Below, piece by piece: positions 39,533 through 49,744 of a stretch of 64,000 nucleotides of DNA. Under the pieces are notes generated by a model. It did no database searches and was not told the origin of the DNA. It worked only from the letters and a program-made list of their open reading frames with translations. Each line of letters opens with the position of its first letter. The stretch's first letter is position 1. Location: contig NZ_SODI01000001.1 of the NCBI RefSeq assembly GCF_004365915.1, positions 1,054,001 through 1,118,000 of the forward strand. The letters run 5' to 3'. This stretch comes from Cryobacterium psychrophilum (GTDB taxonomy: Bacteria; Actinomycetota; Actinomycetes; Actinomycetales; Microbacteriaceae). The position numbers were made by a program, and so were the translations under genes.

Positions 39533-39632
39533 TCTCCGACACGGCCCGCGCGCTGCCGGATGACGAAAGCTGGCGTAGCGTTGTCACGTCGCCGTGGGCG
39601 AGTAAGCACTTTTCTTGTCGAGGGGAGATGCG

Positions 39633-40373
39633 GTGCGCAGAACGTTCGGCGTTGCCCGACTTCTCTTGGCGACCGTCGAACTCGTGTCCCTGACGGGCTA
39701 TTTCATGTACACGCTGAGCGTGGCGAGTTTTGCCATCGGCAACTTCTTCGCGTACTTCACCGTGCTGAGCGCGATGACCACCGTGATCGTTCTGGTCACC
39801 GCCGCCACCATTGCGCTGCGCCGCCCCCGGGATCCGGCCTGGCTGGACATGGCCCGCGTCATGATCACCACGTACATCCTCGTGTCCGGGGTGGTCTATG
39901 CCATCATCGTGTGGCAGGCGGCCAGCGTCAACTATTCGATCGCGGTACCCTGGTCAAGCCAGATCCTGCACTTCTGGATCCCGGCCTTCGTGCTCATCGA
40001 CTGGATCGTGGACCCGTATAAGGCCCGGGTGCCGTGGCGATATCTTGCGTGGGTGATCGTGTTCCCCGTTATCTGGCTCGTAGGCACCCTCATCCGCGGT
40101 GATATTTTGGGCTGGTACCCCTACTTTTTCCTCGACGCGCGACAGGTGAGCGGCCCCACCGAGACGGTGTTGTACTGCGCCCTGATTGTCGTCATCATCA
40201 CGGGAATCGCGGCAATCCTCGTCACCGCGACCCGCATCAAGTGGAAGCCGCGGACCGGCACCACGTCGATGTCCCTGACACATCCGCACGCGCAACCGAC
40301 GTCAAGCCCGGCGCCCCGCCCCTCGGCCGGGCAGCACAAACGCCATCTGAAACGGAGCCGCACGGGCACCTGA
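39633..40373 (+). CDS. Pr6Pr family membrane protein
   Basis: 246 residues, six predicted membrane spans with WxW-type positions (SSQILHFWIPAFVLIDWIVD, RYLAWVIVFPVIWLVGTLIR, WYPYFFLD). The overall pattern matches the Pr6Pr/FAR-17a-like integral membrane family of unknown function. GTG 39633 is chosen because AGGGGAG lies about six bases upstream; an upstream start at 39615 falls on this site. The last 40 residues are a Pro/Ser/Arg-rich cytoplasmic tail. Converges with the amine oxidase gene. Confidence 0.8.
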   Translation: MRRTFGVARLLLATVELVSLTGYFMYTLSVASFAIGNFFAYFTVLSAMTTVIVLVTAATIALRRPRDPAWLDMARVMITTYILVSGVVYAIIVWQAASVNYSIAVPWSSQILHFWIPAFVLIDWIVDPYKARVPWRYLAWVIVFPVIWLVGTLIRGDILGWYPYFFLDARQVSGPTETVLYCALIVVIITGIAAILVTATRIKWKPRTGTTSMSLTHPHAQPTSSPAPRPSAGQHKRHLKRSRTGT

Positions 40374-40427: not shown

Positions 40428-41828
40428 CTACGTCGCGGCCCGGAACGGCTCGAGCGAATGCATCGCCGCAGTGAGGAACACCTCGTCGCTCGCCTCGGCG
40501 AGGCGCAGGGCGTTTTCGGCGGCGATCATGCCCATCAACACGGGTTCTCCCGTGATCGGCAGCATGTTCACCCAGACCGGGAAGTCGGAATCCGTGCCCA
40601 CCACGGTCCACAGCGGGGCCTCGGTGTCCCAGAACGGCTCATCGAAGCGCAGCCACACCTTGTCGAGGACGCCAACGCCAATCGCCGCAATCGCACTGCG
40701 ATGGGCGAACGGCAGCTCGGGAGAAAACTCCACGGCCTCATCCTTCAACACTCCCAGCGGAACGGTGACGATCACGCGGTCCGCGGAGAGCGCTTCACCG
40801 GCCCCGAGGCGCAGGCTGACGCCCTCGTCGTCGTAGGCGATGCGCGTGACCACGCTCGCCATCGTCACGTCGAGGGCGGCGGCGTCACTCGTGAGCAGGT
40901 TGGCGTAGCCGCCCACGACGATGAGGTCGTCATCGGCCAGGGGCTCCGCGGGGGTATACCAGGCGGACTGCTCGCTCAGGAGCGCACCGGAGGTCATTTT
41001 GAGCCGGGTGCTGATCTCATATTCGAGCCAATCGGCATCAGACAGGCCCTGCGCATTGAGCGCGTCAGAGAGCCTGGACTCCCCCGAGTCCACGAACGCA
41101 CGCTCCACCGACACGTCCTGCGGCTGAGTCGCCGCCCAGGCGAGGGCCTCGGCCACGGCCTCGGCGCCGAGGGGCGACAGCGGCACGACCTCACGAGCCC
41201 GGGTGCGTGCCTGTGGCACGCGCGGGAAGGGGAGGGTGCTCACACCGAGGGTCGCGAACTCATCGTCGAGGGTGTTCTCGGTGCTGTTATGCACGAACGA
41301 GGGTCCGAGTTCAATCGGGTTCGGCCAGCCCTTGGTGATCGTGTCGATACGCCCACCCACCCGTTCGCGCGCCTCGACGACGGTGACGTCGTAACCCGCC
41401 TCGCGGAGTTGGGTTGCGGCGGCGAGGCCCGCGATGCCAGCGCCAACAACGATGATGCGCTCGTTCGTTCGACCAACGGCCTGCAGCTGGGTGGCTGCAC
41501 GGAGTCCCGACTCGCGGGCGCCATTAACCGTACCCGGTTCCGTGGCCGCCGTGGCTTCCCCGGCAAAGAACATCCGACCGAGTACGGGTTCGGCGAGCGC
41601 CGCACGATGTTCCGGCGATGCACCCACGGCGGGAAAACTGAACGAGCCACGCGCAAACGGGTCGATTGACCATGAGGAGCGCTGCATGGCCTGCGGTTTC
41701 GGCACCACAGAGGGTGCTCCCGTTGGCACCGGTACCTTCGTGGGCTGCGGTGACGGCGAACCGCAGGCCGCGAGCACCAACACCGAAAGCCCTGACGCCG
41801 TGCCGATCAAAAACTGGCGACGTTTCAT
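40428..41828 (-). CDS. flavin amine oxidase-like lipoprotein, circularly permuted
   Basis: 466 residues. The signal MKRRQFLIGTASGLSVLVLA has a Tat-like R-R-x-F-L and a lipobox with Cys22. After a Pro-rich linker, residues 50-119 carry the block normally found at the C-terminus of MAO/PAO/LSD1-type enzymes (W-x-x-DPFARGSFSF, RMFFAGEAT, GTVNGARESGLRAA). Only then comes the Rossmann motif VVGAGIAGLAAATQL (from residue 127), GGRIDT, and the rest of the fold, which ends at MHSLEPFRAAT, just where the missing C-terminal block would follow. The order is thus permuted and the segments are complete. Substrate is unknown; it should be an exported FAD amine oxidase. No C-terminal FAD block lies downstream in any frame. 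Confidence 0.85.
   Translation of the reverse strand: MKRRQFLIGTASGLSVLVLAACGSPSPQPTKVPVPTGAPSVVPKPQAMQRSSWSIDPFARGSFSFPAVGASPEHRAALAEPVLGRMFFAGEATAATEPGTVNGARESGLRAATQLQAVGRTNERIIVVGAGIAGLAAATQLREAGYDVTVVEARERVGGRIDTITKGWPNPIELGPSFVHNSTENTLDDEFATLGVSTLPFPRVPQARTRAREVVPLSPLGAEAVAEALAWAATQPQDVSVERAFVDSGESRLSDALNAQGLSDADWLEYEISTRLKMTSGALLSEQSAWYTPAEPLADDDLIVVGGYANLLTSDAAALDVTMASVVTRIAYDDEGVSLRLGAGEALSADRVIVTVPLGVLKDEAVEFSPELPFAHRSAIAAIGVGVLDKVWLRFDEPFWDTEAPLWTVVGTDSDFPVWVNMLPITGEPVLMGMIAAENALRLAEASDEVFLTAAMHSLEPFRAAT
41472..41681 (-). other. displaced FAD-binding block (residues 50-119) of the permuted amine oxidase
   Basis: Encodes RSSWSIDPFARGSFSF through the RMFFAGEAT and GTVNGARESG motifs. 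In canonical flavin amine oxidases this segment forms the C-terminal part of the FAD site and follows the substrate domain; here it precedes the dinucleotide-binding motif by about nine residues (AVGRTNERI). Confidence 0.85.
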
Positions 41829-42044: not shown

Positions 42045-43595
42045 TTACAACTCAAGGAATCCGTCAGAGACGAGCTCGCGCATCTGCGGAAGCAGCTCGG
42101 ACCGAAGCGCAGCCTCGTCGACGCTCAGCAGTTGCGCGAGCGCACCCACGATCGCGCCGATGCTCAGCTCACCGTCGCATGCGCCCACGAGCCCGGCGAG
42201 CGCGGTGCTCAGCGGCACCGAGCGGCCGAACCCTCCGCCCTGATGCAGCGTCAACAGGGTCGGGTCATCCTGACCAGGCCAGTAGTGGCGTTCCTCGGTC
42301 ACATCGGATGCCACGGTGAGCGTCGCGCTCAGGAGCGCGGCGTCATCCGTCGCGGCCTGCCAGTCATGGGCGGCGAGGCAATCCGCCAGATGCGCGCCGA
42401 TTTCCGCCGCATTGTGGCCGAGGGCCTCCGGCAGACGCTCAAACCGATGCAGGGTGGGCGCGCCGGTCACCGGCCGGCGCAGCATCAGGTAGCCGAAGCC
42501 CACCTGGCGTACGTCGCGCGCCTCGAAGTCGTCGAGCCACGCCGCGTACAGCCGGTCGAAGTCGGGGGTGTCCGGGCGGGTACCGCCGTCGCGGATCCAC
42601 GTTTCGGCGTATTCCGTGGGCTGCTGCACCTCCCGCTCAATGATCCACGCGTCGAGCTCGGGCGTTTCGCCCAGCGAGCCGGGGGTGTTCGAGGTGAGCC
42701 AGGAGGCCAGCCGGTCGAACGCGTCGTCGTCGGCTCGATACTCCCAGTTGCCGAGGAGCTGCGCCACACCATCGGGGTTGAGGTGCTCCGCGGTGCCGCG
42801 CACCACGGCCTCCACGAGCGCGTCGCCGACCATTCCCCCATCGCGGTACTCATAGCTGGGTACGCCGGGAGTTCGCGGAGTGATCACGAACGGTGGGTTG
42901 GAGATGATGTGGTCGAAACGCTCGCCCGCGACGGGGTCGAAGAGGCTCCCCAGCCGAAACTCAATGTTGTTGACATCGTTGAGCCGGGCGTTGAGCGCCG
43001 CAAGTTCGAGGGCGCGCGGGGAGATATCGGTCGCCACGACCCGCGATGCCTGCCGCGCCGCGTGCAGGGCCTGGATGCCACAGCCGGTGCCCAGGTCGAG
43101 CACGGACTCCACCTGGATCGGCATGATGAGCGAGCTCAGCGTGCGCGAGGCCCCTCCCACCCCGAGCACGTGGTTTTCGCCGAGCGGGTGACCGAGCGCG
43201 AGCTCGCCCAGGTCGGAAACGATCCACCAGCTGCCGGCACCGGCCGCATCAAGGAACGAGTACGGCCGGAGCTCAACGAGGGGGCGCACTTCCCCTGCGT
43301 GCTCCGCCACGAGCCCCAGCTCCATCGCTCCCGCGACACCGAGCGACGGCAACGCCGCACGCAGGTCGTCGGCAGACACGGGCAGGCCCAGCACGAACAG
43401 TTGGGCGAGCGTCGCGGTGGGTTCGGGGCGGGAGAGACGTTCGCGCAGAGCGACGAGGGCCCGGCGGGCCGGCACCTGCTGGTTACGGCGCAGCGCGGCA
43501 TCCGCCTGGATTCCCCACAGCCCGGTGAGCGCACTCACCGAATAGTGGGCGGCGGTCAGGTCGGCGCGGAGCAGGTCAATCAGAGCGGAAGTCAC
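42045..43595 (-). CDS. class I SAM-dependent methyltransferase (N5-glutamine/rRNA methylase-like)
   Basis: 516 residues. An N-terminal helical domain of about 160 residues (DUF7059-like) precedes a methyltransferase domain: VESVLDLGTGCGIQALHAAR (SAM motif I), VVATDISPRALELAALNARL (motif II) and DHIISNPPFVITPR (catalytic NPPF, motif IV), as in HemK/RsmC-type enzymes that methylate amide or exocyclic amino groups. A C-terminal winged-helix-like segment follows. GTG 43595 is used, with 17 bases to the FAD monooxygenase stop. It is the last gene of the cluster but probably a housekeeping rRNA or protein methylase, not part of the polyketide route. Confidence 0.87.
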   Translation of the reverse strand: MTSALIDLLRADLTAAHYSVSALTGLWGIQADAALRRNQQVPARRALVALRERLSRPEPTATLAQLFVLGLPVSADDLRAALPSLGVAGAMELGLVAEHAGEVRPLVELRPYSFLDAAGAGSWWIVSDLGELALGHPLGENHVLGVGGASRTLSSLIMPIQVESVLDLGTGCGIQALHAARQASRVVATDISPRALELAALNARLNDVNNIEFRLGSLFDPVAGERFDHIISNPPFVITPRTPGVPSYEYRDGGMVGDALVEAVVRGTAEHLNPDGVAQLLGNWEYRADDDAFDRLASWLTSNTPGSLGETPELDAWIIEREVQQPTEYAETWIRDGGTRPDTPDFDRLYAAWLDDFEARDVRQVGFGYLMLRRPVTGAPTLHRFERLPEALGHNAAEIGAHLADCLAAHDWQAATDDAALLSATLTVASDVTEERHYWPGQDDPTLLTLHQGGGFGRSVPLSTALAGLVGACDGELSIGAIVGALAQLLSVDEAALRSELLPQMRELVSDGFLEL

Positions 43596-43612
43596 TCGTC
43601 CATTAAACCCGA

Positions 43613-44740
43613 CTACAACCACCGCATGGTGAAGGCCCTCGCCAGAAGGGCGTTGGCGGGCGGCTGCGCCAGGGCGCGCACGAGCGCGTTGCGCGCGCCG
43701 AGTCGCAGTCCGGTGGCCGGGCGGCCCATGTTCATGTTGAACCCGGCCTGCCGCGCAGCCATGACCGCGGCACGTCGCCTCCGCCGACCGTAGACCGCCA
43801 GAGCGGATACCGCTTCCCGCGGCTCGGCGAGACCCCGCTCGATGGCCGGGGCCAGGGCCACGGCGTCGAGCCACCCCAGGTTCATGCCCTGCCCACCGAT
43901 GGGGCTGATCTGGTGGCCGGCGTCGCCCACGAATGCTACCCGCCCGGCCGACAGGCGAGAGGCCAGGTGCTGCTGCACCGCGAACGCGCTTGCCACGCCG
44001 CGAGGGTCACCAACCTCGACGCCCGTGCGGTGACGGATGATCCCGGCCAGGTCGCCGCTCGTGGCCTCCGTCGCGAGAAAGTCGGTCATCGCCACCCACC
44101 GGCGGCGCCCGCCGGGTAAGGGGAAGGACTCCACCACTCCCCCGCGTTCGAAGAAGAGCATGGCGGTGTCGCCCAGGGCTCCCGTATCGGCATAGTCGCC
44201 CATCACATAGGTTTCACGGCGGCCGAGGGACGTCCAGCCGATGCGCATCACATCCCGAACCCGGCTCGTGGCACCGTCGGCCGCGACCACGAAACGTGCG
44301 GGAACGCTCTCGCCCGTTTCGGTGAGTACCTCCACGTGGTCTGGGTGTTCACGAATCCCGGTCACCGTGACGCCGCCGCGCGAGCAGCCGGGGCGCAGCT
44401 GCTCAAAGCGAGCGCGCAACAGAAACTCGGTGTCGTACTGCGGCAGCGTGACGATGAACGGGTAGCGGGTGGGTAGGTCCGCAAAGGACAGGCGCCCCAG
44501 GTCCAGGCCGTCACAGCGCACGCTGCCCTCCTGCACGTGCGTGCCGCGGCTCACGACCGCTCCCCCCACGCCGATGTCCTCGAGTACGCGCAGCAGCGGC
44601 GGGTGGATGCCGATCGCTCGCGACCGCATCGACGGCTCGGTGCGCCGCTCCAGCACCTGCACATCGAGTCCGCGCACCGCGAGCACGCAGGCCAGCATCG
44701 TGCCCACCGGGCCTCCGCCCACGATCACCACGTCACGCAC
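43613..44740 (-). CDS. FAD-dependent monooxygenase (SrsC/UbiH-like)
   Basis: 375 residues. Aromatic-hydroxylase-type flavoprotein: N-terminal VVIVGGGPVGTMLACVLAVRG, second FAD motif FVVAADGATSRVRD (DG motif), and AGRVAFVGDAGHQISPIGGQ with the GD motif. Predicted to hydroxylate the aromatic polyketide made by the type III PKS. Its start overlaps the methyltransferase stop by eight bases, so it is co-translated. In Streptomyces griseus SrsC, a similar enzyme, oxidises methylated alkylresorcinol to a hydroquinone. Confidence 0.88.
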   Translation of the reverse strand: MRDVVIVGGGPVGTMLACVLAVRGLDVQVLERRTEPSMRSRAIGIHPPLLRVLEDIGVGGAVVSRGTHVQEGSVRCDGLDLGRLSFADLPTRYPFIVTLPQYDTEFLLRARFEQLRPGCSRGGVTVTGIREHPDHVEVLTETGESVPARFVVAADGATSRVRDVMRIGWTSLGRRETYVMGDYADTGALGDTAMLFFERGGVVESFPLPGGRRRWVAMTDFLATEATSGDLAGIIRHRTGVEVGDPRGVASAFAVQQHLASRLSAGRVAFVGDAGHQISPIGGQGMNLGWLDAVALAPAIERGLAEPREAVSALAVYGRRRRRAAVMAARQAGFNMNMGRPATGLRLGARNALVRALAQPPANALLARAFTMRWL

Positions 44741-45506
44741 GGAAGCCGCCCGCTCCTCGCGCCGAAGCGGATGCCCCTGCCCGGCGCCGGGTGGTGCCCC
44801 GTGAAGCCGGTGCGGCCCACTCGAGCAGGAGGCGGGAGGGACGCCCGCGTACCACCCGCCAGCCGGGCGGCGCGACCGCGGTCAACTCTCGCGCGGTGAA
44901 ACTGCGTCGAATGGAGGTGAGTCCGTCCGGGCGGATGTAGGAGCGACGAAAGAACGGCCACGTTCCGACGGAGAAACCCAGATAGGCCAGGTGGCTGCGC
45001 TCGATATCGGCATGCAACACACGCTGGGCGGCGAGCCGCTCCGAGTCCACGAGCAGCGCCCCCAGCGCGGCCGCGCCCAGGTGATGCAGCATGTGGTTCG
45101 ACACGACGAAGTCAAACCGTGCCCCTTCGCTCACGAGTTCTGAACTGTAGGCGCGACGGAACGTGAGTCCCTGCTGCACCGGCTGAGCGAGGCAGAACGC
45201 GTGCGCACGGGCATCCGGGTCAATGCCCGTGACATCGAGGCGCAGGCCGTCCCGCACCGCCCACCGGGCGAGTGCCCGCGACACGTCCCCGCCGCCGGAG
45301 CCAATATCGAGCAGGGTCGTGAGCCGCGTGGTCGACAGGAACGGCCGAATATCGCGGCGGTATATCGCGCCCCAGCCCGACACCACGGCGTTGACCAGAC
45401 GAAAGTCTGCGTAGGTTCGCGTCAGCATGTCGGGGTCGCAGGGGCCGTCCATGATCTCGACCGCGTCATCCGCTCGCCCGCGGAGCGAGGGCATGAGCAC
45501 GCTCAC
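44733..45506 (-). CDS. SAM-dependent methyltransferase (SrsB-like)
   Basis: 257 residues. SAM motif I is LTTLLDIGSGGGDVSRALAR; DVTGIDPDARAHAF and FDFVVSNHMLHHLG follow. A C-terminal low-complexity Arg/Ala/Gly tail has no visible function. It starts at ATG 45506 inside the PKS stop (ATGA overlap) and overlaps the monooxygenase start, so it is the middle gene of a tight three-gene set. Position equals SrsB, an O-methyltransferase acting on the resorcinol ring. Confidence 0.86.
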   Translation of the reverse strand: MSVLMPSLRGRADDAVEIMDGPCDPDMLTRTYADFRLVNAVVSGWGAIYRRDIRPFLSTTRLTTLLDIGSGGGDVSRALARWAVRDGLRLDVTGIDPDARAHAFCLAQPVQQGLTFRRAYSSELVSEGARFDFVVSNHMLHHLGAAALGALLVDSERLAAQRVLHADIERSHLAYLGFSVGTWPFFRRSYIRPDGLTSIRRSFTARELTAVAPPGWRVVRGRPSRLLLEWAAPASRGTTRRRAGASASARGAGGFRA

Positions 45507-46756
45507 CCCACGCTGACGGTCATGAGTGCCGACTCGACCGTGAGCCCCGGCCCGAACGCCATGGCGCAGAGGCGTTCGCCGTGTGCGCTCGTCGGCTCGT
45601 CGAGAATGGCCTTCATCACGAACAGGACGGTGGCGCTGCTCATGTTCCCGTGAGCCCGCAGCGTCTCGCGGGAGGGGCGCAGTTGCGCTTCACTCAGTCG
45701 GAGCTTCGCCTCTGTCTTGTCCAGGATGCTGCGCCCGCCCGGGTGGATGGCCCAGTGCGCGATGGCCTCGCTCGGGGCGGGGGCCAGAAGGGTGGCGACC
45801 GAGCCGGCGGAGGCGGGCTCCCGGCTGGCAGCATCCCTGGATTCGTCGGGCACGAGCGCCGCGGTGAGGGCCGTGAAACCGAGACCATCGTCGGTGAGCA
45901 GTGAGCTGAGCGCCGAGTCACGCGCCATGAGCGGTGCGAGCGCGCTCTCGATGTGCTCGTCGATGATGTGCGGCACGTACGTGCTGAGCACCATTTCAAA
46001 GCCCTCATCACCGATTTTCCACGCCATGTCCCCCTCGCCGATCGGCGTGATCACCGTCTCGAAGACGTCGAGATCGAGCGCCTTCTCCCCCGGGTACGGC
46101 GCTCGAGCACTCACGATTCCCGCGGCGGCCCCATCGGAGAAGAGCGAGGAGGCCACGATCGTGTCGGGGTCGTTGGACGTGCGCAGATGCAGGGAGCAGA
46201 GCTCGGCGCTCACGACGAGCACGACCGCTTCGGGGTCGGCCTCCACGAATTGTTTGGCGGTGCGCAGCGCCGGCATTGCGGCGTAGCAGCCCATGAAACC
46301 CAGGTGATACCGCTGGGTGGCGGGGCTTAGCCCCAGCTCACGCACAAGCATGTAGTCGGGCCCTGGGGCGAAGAATCCGGTGCAGGAGACAGTGACAACG
46401 TGCGTGATGTCGGAGGCCTCAACCCCAGGACATGACTCGAGGGCACGGCGACCGGCTTCCACGAACAATTTGGTGGCCTCCACGATGTAGAGCTCGTTGC
46501 GCACGCGCGTGCCGGGAACAAGCAATCGTCGCTCCACCGGATCGAAGAACTGCGCACTCGCACCGTCGGCATCAAGGTTGAGCTCCTCAATGACCGTATG
46601 GCGGGTGTCGATTCCCGACACGTTGAAGGAGGTGTTGACGAGGCGTTGGCCGAGTCGACTCAGTCCTGGCTGGGCCGCGAACACGTCGCGAACCTGCTCC
46701 TGGTACAGCACGGTGGGCGGAACTGCAGTCTGGAGCGATCTCAGCGTGACGGCCAT
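45503..46756 (-). CDS. type III polyketide synthase (alkylresorcinol/alkylpyrone type)
   Basis: 417 residues. The catalytic triad of chalcone-synthase-fold enzymes is complete: Cys157 in LGFMGCYAAM, His338 in WAIHPGGRSILD and Asn371 in AHGNMSSAT. The enzyme extends a fatty acyl-CoA with malonyl units and cyclises to a resorcinol or pyrone. ATG 46756 (MAVTLRSLQT) is preferred over 46771. It is upstream of a methyltransferase and an FAD monooxygenase, matching the srsABC gene order for phenolic lipids, so the product is probably a membrane-associated phenolic lipid. The chain length cannot be read from the sequence. Confidence 0.93.
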   Translation of the reverse strand: MAVTLRSLQTAVPPTVLYQEQVRDVFAAQPGLSRLGQRLVNTSFNVSGIDTRHTVIEELNLDADGASAQFFDPVERRLLVPGTRVRNELYIVEATKLFVEAGRRALESCPGVEASDITHVVTVSCTGFFAPGPDYMLVRELGLSPATQRYHLGFMGCYAAMPALRTAKQFVEADPEAVVLVVSAELCSLHLRTSNDPDTIVASSLFSDGAAAGIVSARAPYPGEKALDLDVFETVITPIGEGDMAWKIGDEGFEMVLSTYVPHIIDEHIESALAPLMARDSALSSLLTDDGLGFTALTAALVPDESRDAASREPASAGSVATLLAPAPSEAIAHWAIHPGGRSILDKTEAKLRLSEAQLRPSRETLRAHGNMSSATVLFVMKAILDEPTSAHGERLCAMAFGPGLTVESALMTVSVG

Positions 46757-46817
46757 ACGACAGTGTGGCATGCACTCCCGATTTTCGCTGGACTTTTATC
46801 GCCACGAATGGCCCGGG

Positions 46818-48187: not shown

Positions 48188-49744
48188 TTATCCCATGGCC
48201 CAGATCCCGCTCTGGCGGGTGAGGCCGAGGTTCAGGAGCCGTTTAAGGTTGATTCCGGCCGCCCGATTCACCCACCACGCGTTGTTCTTCACGACGCCTC
48301 GGTAAGGGACGCGGCGGGACTTGCGTGTCATCCAGGCGATGGAGCGTTCAACCATCGGCCGGTGTTGTCGATAATCGGCTTGGAAGAGCGGATCCTGAGC
48401 CCGGACACGGTGCTCCCGGCGGATGGCGTCATGCTCACGGAGCAGCATTTTCTTGCCGCTCTTCGCCGTCGTGCACTGCTTCATGAGGGGGCAGGTGGCG
48501 CAGGAACTACCAAAACTTGCGCGCCCCGCAGCACTGAGTGGGCGGGTCTGACCCGCTGGGCAGGTGACCGTGTTCGTGGTCTCGTCGATAGTGAAATCAT
48601 CGACGGTGAAGCCGCCGGGAATCGCCCGTCCCAGCGGCGGTGGTTTGATGATCGCGGTGTGACCGGCGGCGGTGATCGCGGCGAGAAGCTCACCACTGCC
48701 ATAAGCAGAATCGCCCAGAACATCGACGTTCTGGGCGCCGATGCTCGTGTCTTTGGTGACTAGTTCCATGCCGCGGGCCGCGTCGCTGTTGGCCAAACCA
48801 GCCGCCTTGGTCAGGATCGCCGCGGTCACCAGGCCCGTGTCCGGTTCGATGATGATGTGGCTTTTGAAGCCGTCGACTTTCTTCTGCCGGCTCTTGTGCG
48901 CGTGACGGGCATCAGGATCAACGGTGGAAATGACCCGGTCCGGGGCGACCCGCCGTGCAATTTTCCACCGCCCCTCCGTTTCATGCGACCCGTCTGCCGG
49001 CTCAACGTCCTGCCCGGCGACCAACGCGAGCAGGGCGACGGTTTCCTGCTGCGCGTCGGTGAGAACCGTCGGGTCAATGCCGGCCAGCAAGGACAGGGCA
49101 TCGGTGACGAGCGCGGACACGAGGTCGTCGCGAGCGGCTCGGTCATCCCACGCGATATCCGGTTTCCCTGGCTTCGCGTAATCGTGACCGGTCAACGCGG
49201 ACACGAGCACATCCGCGCCGGGAATCTCCCGGCCCACCCGGCGGATCTGCGCAACGAGCTGTGTGACGGTGTCCTGACGCGCGACAGCGTCCTCCAAAAT
49301 TGTGGAGTCCAACGCGCGTCGCTTCCGACCCGATAACGCCCCGGACTGCTCGATAACCTCGGTCACTGCCTCAAAAATACGGTGGGGGCGCGTGCTGTTC
49401 GCGAGGCGGCGGCGCCAATACGTGAGGACCGTCGGATGAAACGACGCGTCCGTCAACGCGAACCCGCAGGCCGCTTTCCACCGCAAGTCGAACGTGACCG
49501 CCTCGGCCGTTTCCCGATCCGAGAGGCTATGCAACGTCTGCAACACCATCACCGACGCGATCACATCAACTGGAGTGGACGGGCGCCCCCGACCGGACGG
49601 AAACAAATCCTCGAACGCGTCATCGGGGAACAACTCGTGCCGATGATCGGCGAGGAACTTGAACACGGAACCCGCTGGAAGCATATGCCCCGCCATCGAC
49701 TCGACATCCAAAAGCTGACGTTGACCATCATCACGACCCTGCAT
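48188..49744 (-). CDS. IS1182-family transposase
   Basis: 518 residues, full length, starting MQGRDDGQRQLLDVESMAG as typical for the family. It carries the N-terminal DUF772-like helix-turn-helix region (ELFPDDAFEDLFPSGRGRP, VDVIASVMVLQTLH), the DDE catalytic core (first Asp in RALDSTILEDA, second in VDVLGDSAYGSGELL, Glu in MVERSIAWM), and a C-terminal Cys cluster (CPAGQTRPLS..SSCATCPLMKQC). All parts are intact, so the element may be active. The frame is free of stops, which argues for recent arrival. It is transcribed opposite to the gene it borders. Confidence 0.93.
   Translation of the reverse strand: MQGRDDGQRQLLDVESMAGHMLPAGSVFKFLADHRHELFPDDAFEDLFPSGRGRPSTPVDVIASVMVLQTLHSLSDRETAEAVTFDLRWKAACGFALTDASFHPTVLTYWRRRLANSTRPHRIFEAVTEVIEQSGALSGRKRRALDSTILEDAVARQDTVTQLVAQIRRVGREIPGADVLVSALTGHDYAKPGKPDIAWDDRAARDDLVSALVTDALSLLAGIDPTVLTDAQQETVALLALVAGQDVEPADGSHETEGRWKIARRVAPDRVISTVDPDARHAHKSRQKKVDGFKSHIIIEPDTGLVTAAILTKAAGLANSDAARGMELVTKDTSIGAQNVDVLGDSAYGSGELLAAITAAGHTAIIKPPPLGRAIPGGFTVDDFTIDETTNTVTCPAGQTRPLSAAGRASFGSSCATCPLMKQCTTAKSGKKMLLREHDAIRREHRVRAQDPLFQADYRQHRPMVERSIAWMTRKSRRVPYRGVVKNNAWWVNRAAGINLKRLLNLGLTRQSGIWAMG

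Follow-up and report, generated by a model that had tools for sequence, protein, structure and literature searches.

To our knowledge, members of the flavin amine oxidase superfamily have been described with the Rossmann motif first and a second flavin adenine dinucleotide (FAD)-binding block last. Circular permutation has been reported for another group of extracytosolic bacterial flavoproteins, the FMN-bind1 multi-flavinylated proteins (PMC11334425, in the passages available). The words 'amine oxidase' are absent from the available text of that article (0 occurrences), and none of the passages sought in PMC11334425, PMC11757225 and PMC3281007 deals with such an enzyme. No description of a permuted flavin amine oxidase was found in the literature searched, in line with the original prediction for the locus analysed here, to which none was known; most subscription journals lay outside the scope of that search and a printed account elsewhere is possible. 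The locus lies in a 64,000-nucleotide stretch of the Cryobacterium psychrophilum genome (contig NZ_SODI01000001.1, positions 1,054,001 to 1,118,000), hereafter the window, and encodes a protein in which both halves of the PF01593 profile are complete, stand in swapped order, are conserved in that order among relatives and are confidently predicted to fold. The protein is probably a natural circular permutant of the MAO/PAO/LSD1 flavin amine oxidase fold, acting in the envelope as an FAD oxidase or dehydrogenase with a changed substrate.

The open reading frame (ORF) runs on the minus strand from an ATG at 41828 to a stop ending at 40428 and encodes 466 residues closing with LEPFRAAT, the coordinates and motifs being those originally predicted. 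PF01593 positions 367-442 were matched in its upstream part (genome 1095484-1095711, window 41484-41711, E 7.9e-18) and positions 1-366 in its downstream part (genome 1094437-1095435, window 40437-41435, E 7.5e-47), both in one open frame with no internal stop. The whole profile scored 222 bits against a curated cut-off of 19.8, and a chance origin of the swapped matches was rejected on the profile statistics. Alignment to human LSD2 paired query residues 42-117 with LSD2 700-775 and residues 120-459 with LSD2 334-691. The predicted placement of the FAD block ahead of the dinucleotide motif was thus borne out by profile and alignment alike, but its extent was corrected from residues 50-119 to 42-117. 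The core ends where the canonical C-terminal block would follow; an in-frame canonical block downstream, which the original prediction had named as contrary evidence, was looked for and not found 3' of the gene, where the protein terminates and the next gene lies on the opposite strand. The canonical order would place the Rossmann motif at the start and the C-terminal FAD block at the end; the protein departs from it and was therefore classed as a permuted variant and not as an ordinary PF01593 member. Every segment occurs once, in rotated order, and a short link connects the former termini, as in a circular permutant, and the earlier view of a reordering instead of a truncation holds. The features of the gene are as follows.

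40428..41828, minus strand: permuted flavin amine oxidase-like protein, 466 residues (ORF, PF01593 profile and LSD2 alignment)
41763..41828, minus strand: twin-arginine translocation (Tat)-like signal with lipobox, residues 1-22, MKRRQFL...LAAC (sequence pattern)
41478..41705, minus strand: displaced C-terminal FAD block, residues 42-117, with W-x-x-DPFARGSFSF, FFAGEAT and GTVNGARESG (PF01593 positions 367-442; LSD2 700-775)
41442..41507, minus strand: junction G108-G129, between the former C-terminal helix and the former first Rossmann strand (fixed spacing in relatives; confident model)
40449..41471, minus strand: N-terminal Rossmann segment and substrate domain, residues 120-460 (PF01593 positions 1-366; LSD2 334-691)
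40659..40661, minus strand: Lys390, presumably at the catalytic-lysine position of LSD1 and PAO (alignment)

A search for proteins of the same order, as originally suggested, showed that the permuted order is widespread and not confined to the window gene. The window protein retrieved 2311 relatives, and among the best 120 the block preceded the core in 119, including the window's own protein (P0002), the remaining one (P0111) being a fragment without the block. A control search with the canonical protein of locus L162 (P0122) gave, among the best 120 of 5271 relatives, 119 canonical proteins and one permuted (P0235), so the method detects either order. A junction-spanning match was present in 47 of 150 genomes sampled from Microbacteriaceae, the family to which the window belongs, its own genome included. 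Matches were also present in four genomes of other families in the order sample of 396 genomes (G195, G266, G346, G267) and in six outside the order in the phylum sample of 396 (G719, G623, G848, G674, G872, G693), both samples also containing genomes of the window's own family; all ten proved to have the block before the core, although the frame is interrupted in G872 (L168, excluded from every tree). Weak junction-crossing matches at L171, L172, L173, L183 and L184 were rejected as not permuted, as was L170 (G911), where an apparent crossing proved canonical.

A degenerate junction DNA pattern applied to the genome_contigs collection returned at least 119 stretches; it requires a TTC codon and misses the window's own gene, and its counts are neither a full tally nor a proof of absence. 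The profile placed block before core in one frame at 100 of 119 loci (89 complete, 11 partial), and two more cut by the locus end (L050, L145) show the block and the motif, giving 102 permuted loci. At the remaining 17, mostly from Betaproteobacteria, with Alloalcanivorax, Amycolatopsis, Lentzea and a Verrucomicrobia metagenome-assembled genome (MAG), neither half was matched and the hits were taken as chance. Neither half was matched in the five stretches from the viral collection, and the plasmid collection gave five partial matches, each with less than 80 percent query coverage. The permuted genes of Naasia aerilata (L096) and a Microbacterium sp. (L143) look interrupted, since their blocks fall in two reading frames. 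Named holders in Microbacteriaceae include Cryobacterium, Leifsonia, Microbacterium, Frigoribacterium, Frondihabitans, Clavibacter, Agromyces, Herbiconiux, Naasia and Planctomonas; outside it they include Acidimicrobiia (with an Ilumatobacter MAG), Solirubrobacterales MAGs and two alphaproteobacterial MAGs, labelled Roseovarius and Rhodobacter, which may be misbinned and whose proteins group together (97/98). Many relatives are annotated as 'flavin monoamine oxidase family protein', an order-blind name that hides both the permuted order and the rewritten active site described below.

The AlphaFold model of the window protein had a predicted local distance difference test (pLDDT) score of 90 and a predicted template modelling (pTM) score of 0.88, with pLDDT 93-96 across the junction, and its nearest solved folds were LSD2, LSD1 and maize polyamine oxidase. 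In structural superposition the core was matched and the displaced block was not, as aligners follow chain order; the proposal that the permutation could fold agrees with the confident model. In the best 60 of the 162 PDB matches, the best-matching stretch never crossed the junction. The spacing from the last glycine of the block (G108) to the first of GxGxxG (G129) was 21 in 222 of the 235 permuted rows; a further 12 have 18-20, and a single row has 32. In 229 of the 235 the protein ends 63-87 residues past the FW motif, and canonical rows have 72-85 residues from that motif to the block tryptophan (79 in 88 of 135), so the chain was opened in the same loop throughout.

Residue conservation was counted over 235 permuted and 135 canonical rows, the permuted rows not being deduplicated and holding the window's gene several times and some genomes twice. 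Ten FAD-site positions (G129, G131, G134, G158, G159, R160, W53, G90, E91 and G103) were identical in all 235 permuted rows. At three active-site positions the picture differs: lysine was kept at the Lys390 position in 165/235 permuted against 135/135 canonical rows, tryptophan at the Trp178 position in 39/235 against 134/135, and tyrosine at the Tyr63 position in 37/235 against 135/135; alignments around these positions looked sound in 27 rows. We take Lys390 to correspond to the catalytic lysine of LSD1 and PAO, and the tryptophan and tyrosine likewise to be substrate or active-site residues. The window protein lacks the full canonical set, keeping Lys390 and carrying Phe at the Trp178 and Tyr63 positions and Glu at residue 97, and its chemistry may, judging from these replacements and from the frequent loss of the lysine, differ from amine oxidation. 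The lysine is replaced in many genera of the window gene's clade and retained in Cryobacterium, and the L062 protein has lost all three residues. Most permuted members outside the Microbacteriaceae branch keep all three (examples are L022, L023, L026, L036, L051, L112, L137, L167, L169 and P0235), with exceptions in L163-L166 (Trp for Tyr) and L114 (Arg for Lys).

As predicted, the window protein carries the pattern of a Tat lipoprotein, with twin arginine, hydrophobic stretch and lipobox cysteine. RRx[FLIVM] preceded the first block in 218 and RR...lipobox in 212 of the 223 permuted rows whose leader has 30 residues or more, compared with 86/111 and 47/111 canonical rows; these counts may be too high, as the leaders of locus frames begin at the preceding stop and part of them may be untranslated.

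The gene next to the permuted one, with which it is convergent, encodes a membrane protein of the Pr6Pr family, a name not found in the literature searched.

39615..40373, plus strand: Pr6Pr family membrane protein gene (NF038065, E 6e-32; no Pfam family matched), its stop 54 bases from that of the permuted gene

Of the 76 loci with 1 kb or more of downstream sequence, 65 have a convergent Pr6Pr gene there, and one of the 11 others (L086) is labelled Microbacteriaceae. Among the 47 permuted-positive family genomes, at least 42 have Pr6Pr within 3.5 kb, always convergent, and two of these carry a second, upstream copy; in both (G076:C1 ~1544567-1547080 and G139:C3 ~273298-275812) the permuted gene is flanked by an upstream Pr6Pr gene on its own strand and a convergent downstream one. 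In the remaining five, Pr6Pr was found by the locus survey in G106, the genes of G044 and G012 lie near a contig end, G038 has none within the 508 bases available and G089 has no clear assignment. Pr6Pr occurs in 128 of 150 family genomes, so its mere presence says little. Lysine, tryptophan and tyrosine are kept together at none of the 86 loci where Pr6Pr was matched, compared with 18 of the 29 where it was not, at least five of the 29 being cut short downstream. Shared descent can explain this association, and a functional link is accordingly a hypothesis.

Directly upstream of the permuted gene lies a methyltransferase gene with DUF7059 and DUF7782 (42045-43874, minus strand), which recurs at 5 of 85 related loci with variable upstream coverage. 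Further along the minus strand, a type III polyketide synthase of the chalcone/stilbene synthase type (45503-46771), a second methyltransferase (44733-45506) and, last, an FAD_binding_3 oxidoreductase (43613-44740) form a three-gene row (43613-46771) that resembles a small natural-product operon, and a DDE transposase with a DUF772 domain is encoded at 48188-49744 (minus strand).

In the history proposed here, duplication and trimming probably gave rise to the permuted order in an ancestral gene, so that the old C-terminal helix would have been joined to the old first Rossmann strand through a short turn and the chain opened in the loop ahead of the W-x-x-D-P strand. We infer the route through tandem duplication, fusion and trimming; no intermediate with the C-terminal block at both ends occurred among the locus ORFs scanned, database proteins not having been searched for one. 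The product is predicted to be anchored as a lipoprotein after Tat export and to bind FAD with the residues that canonical members use. Permuted lineages outside Microbacteriaceae would mostly retain the amine-oxidase active site, and the Microbacteriaceae branch, window gene included, would have kept the FAD site, rewritten the substrate site and become linked to the Pr6Pr gene. The most likely role of the window protein is that of an FAD oxidase or dehydrogenase in the envelope whose substrate has changed. More tentatively, all permuted proteins may form one old family crossing phyla, from which the Microbacteriaceae branch left amine oxidation for new chemistry in an undescribed envelope FAD module with Pr6Pr.

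Several results weigh against this account. The displaced block was not matched to LSD1 in superposition, for the alignment reason given above, model residues 11-30 had a pLDDT of 59, and the Pr6Pr pairing may reflect shared descent. In trees built on block-rotated alignments, both the 107-row and the 47-row tree needed four order changes for the permuted rows, strong branches forcing one in the former and two in the latter; 0 percent of 200 bootstrap trees of the 47 rows, a bootstrap that was unsettled, had a single change, and some permuted rows of that tree (L163, L167, L169) were placed among canonical ones. A second permutation or a reversion is therefore possible. The shared breakpoint and junction length favour a single event, or one loop that tolerates opening, and a single permuted clade was not rejected by the approximately unbiased test of the 47 rows (p 0.294); one origin is thus neither rejected nor demonstrated. 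A Microbacteriaceae permuted copy that keeps all three active-site residues and groups with a Solirubrobacterales row (L178, G038) was possibly acquired by transfer.

Other explanations were weighed against the permuted envelope enzyme. An assembly error or frameshift, raised in the original prediction as a possible refutation, is ruled out for practical purposes, as the same order in one frame recurs in 119/120 listed relatives and 100/119 pattern loci and nothing was found in its favour. That the N-terminal block swaps between two chains or acts in trans, and does not close its own FAD site, is very improbable: its single point of support is the failure of aligners to superpose the block, but the single-chain pTM is high, as is the junction pLDDT, and the junction is short and fixed in length.

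The remaining alternatives concern chemistry. The protein could be permuted yet ordinary, an exported amine or polyamine oxidase releasing H2O2 at the cell surface whose substrate-site changes tune specificity; retention of the lysine in the window protein and in 165/235 permuted rows, and of all three residues by most members outside Microbacteriaceae, agrees with this, but the Phe, Phe and Glu of the window protein and the absence of the lysine from many related genera, set against 135/135 canonical rows, make it doubtful, though a real contender. Somewhat less likely is that in Microbacteriaceae the protein holds FAD but carries out no oxidase chemistry, serving for instance as a sensor or electron carrier together with the Pr6Pr membrane protein. 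FAD motifs that stay near invariant while the three active-site residues vary together, and the absence of the complete set of three from each of the 86 Pr6Pr loci, point towards it; however, Pr6Pr is common without a permuted neighbour (128/150 against 47/150 genomes), and Cryobacterium keeps the lysine.

Judged against known systems, the block order and the branch with a changed active site were rated as new, and the PF01593 profile and FAD site as known. The persistence of the swapped order across several bacterial classes constitutes a natural test of the fold's tolerance to reordering and a starting point for split or permuted oxidases. The Microbacteriaceae lineage offers a kept FAD site beside a rewritten active site, with canonical relatives available for comparison. 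The FMN-bind1 proteins are also permuted and extracytosolic but, in the passages available, differ from the window protein in fold, in their covalent flavin mononucleotide (FMN) and in displacing a single helix (PMC11334425). Canonical-order bacterial relatives (L162/P0122, L151, L154) have the same blocks and FAD residues, and some have the twin arginine and lipobox as well, but the core comes first, the block last, and the active-site residues are retained almost throughout. With the PF01593 enzymes LSD1, LSD2, maize polyamine oxidase, spermine oxidase and MAO, the window protein has in common both profile halves, the FAD motifs and the predicted fold, and its clade differs from them in carrying the C-terminal FAD block at the N-terminus and in the change of the tryptophan, the tyrosine and often the lysine.
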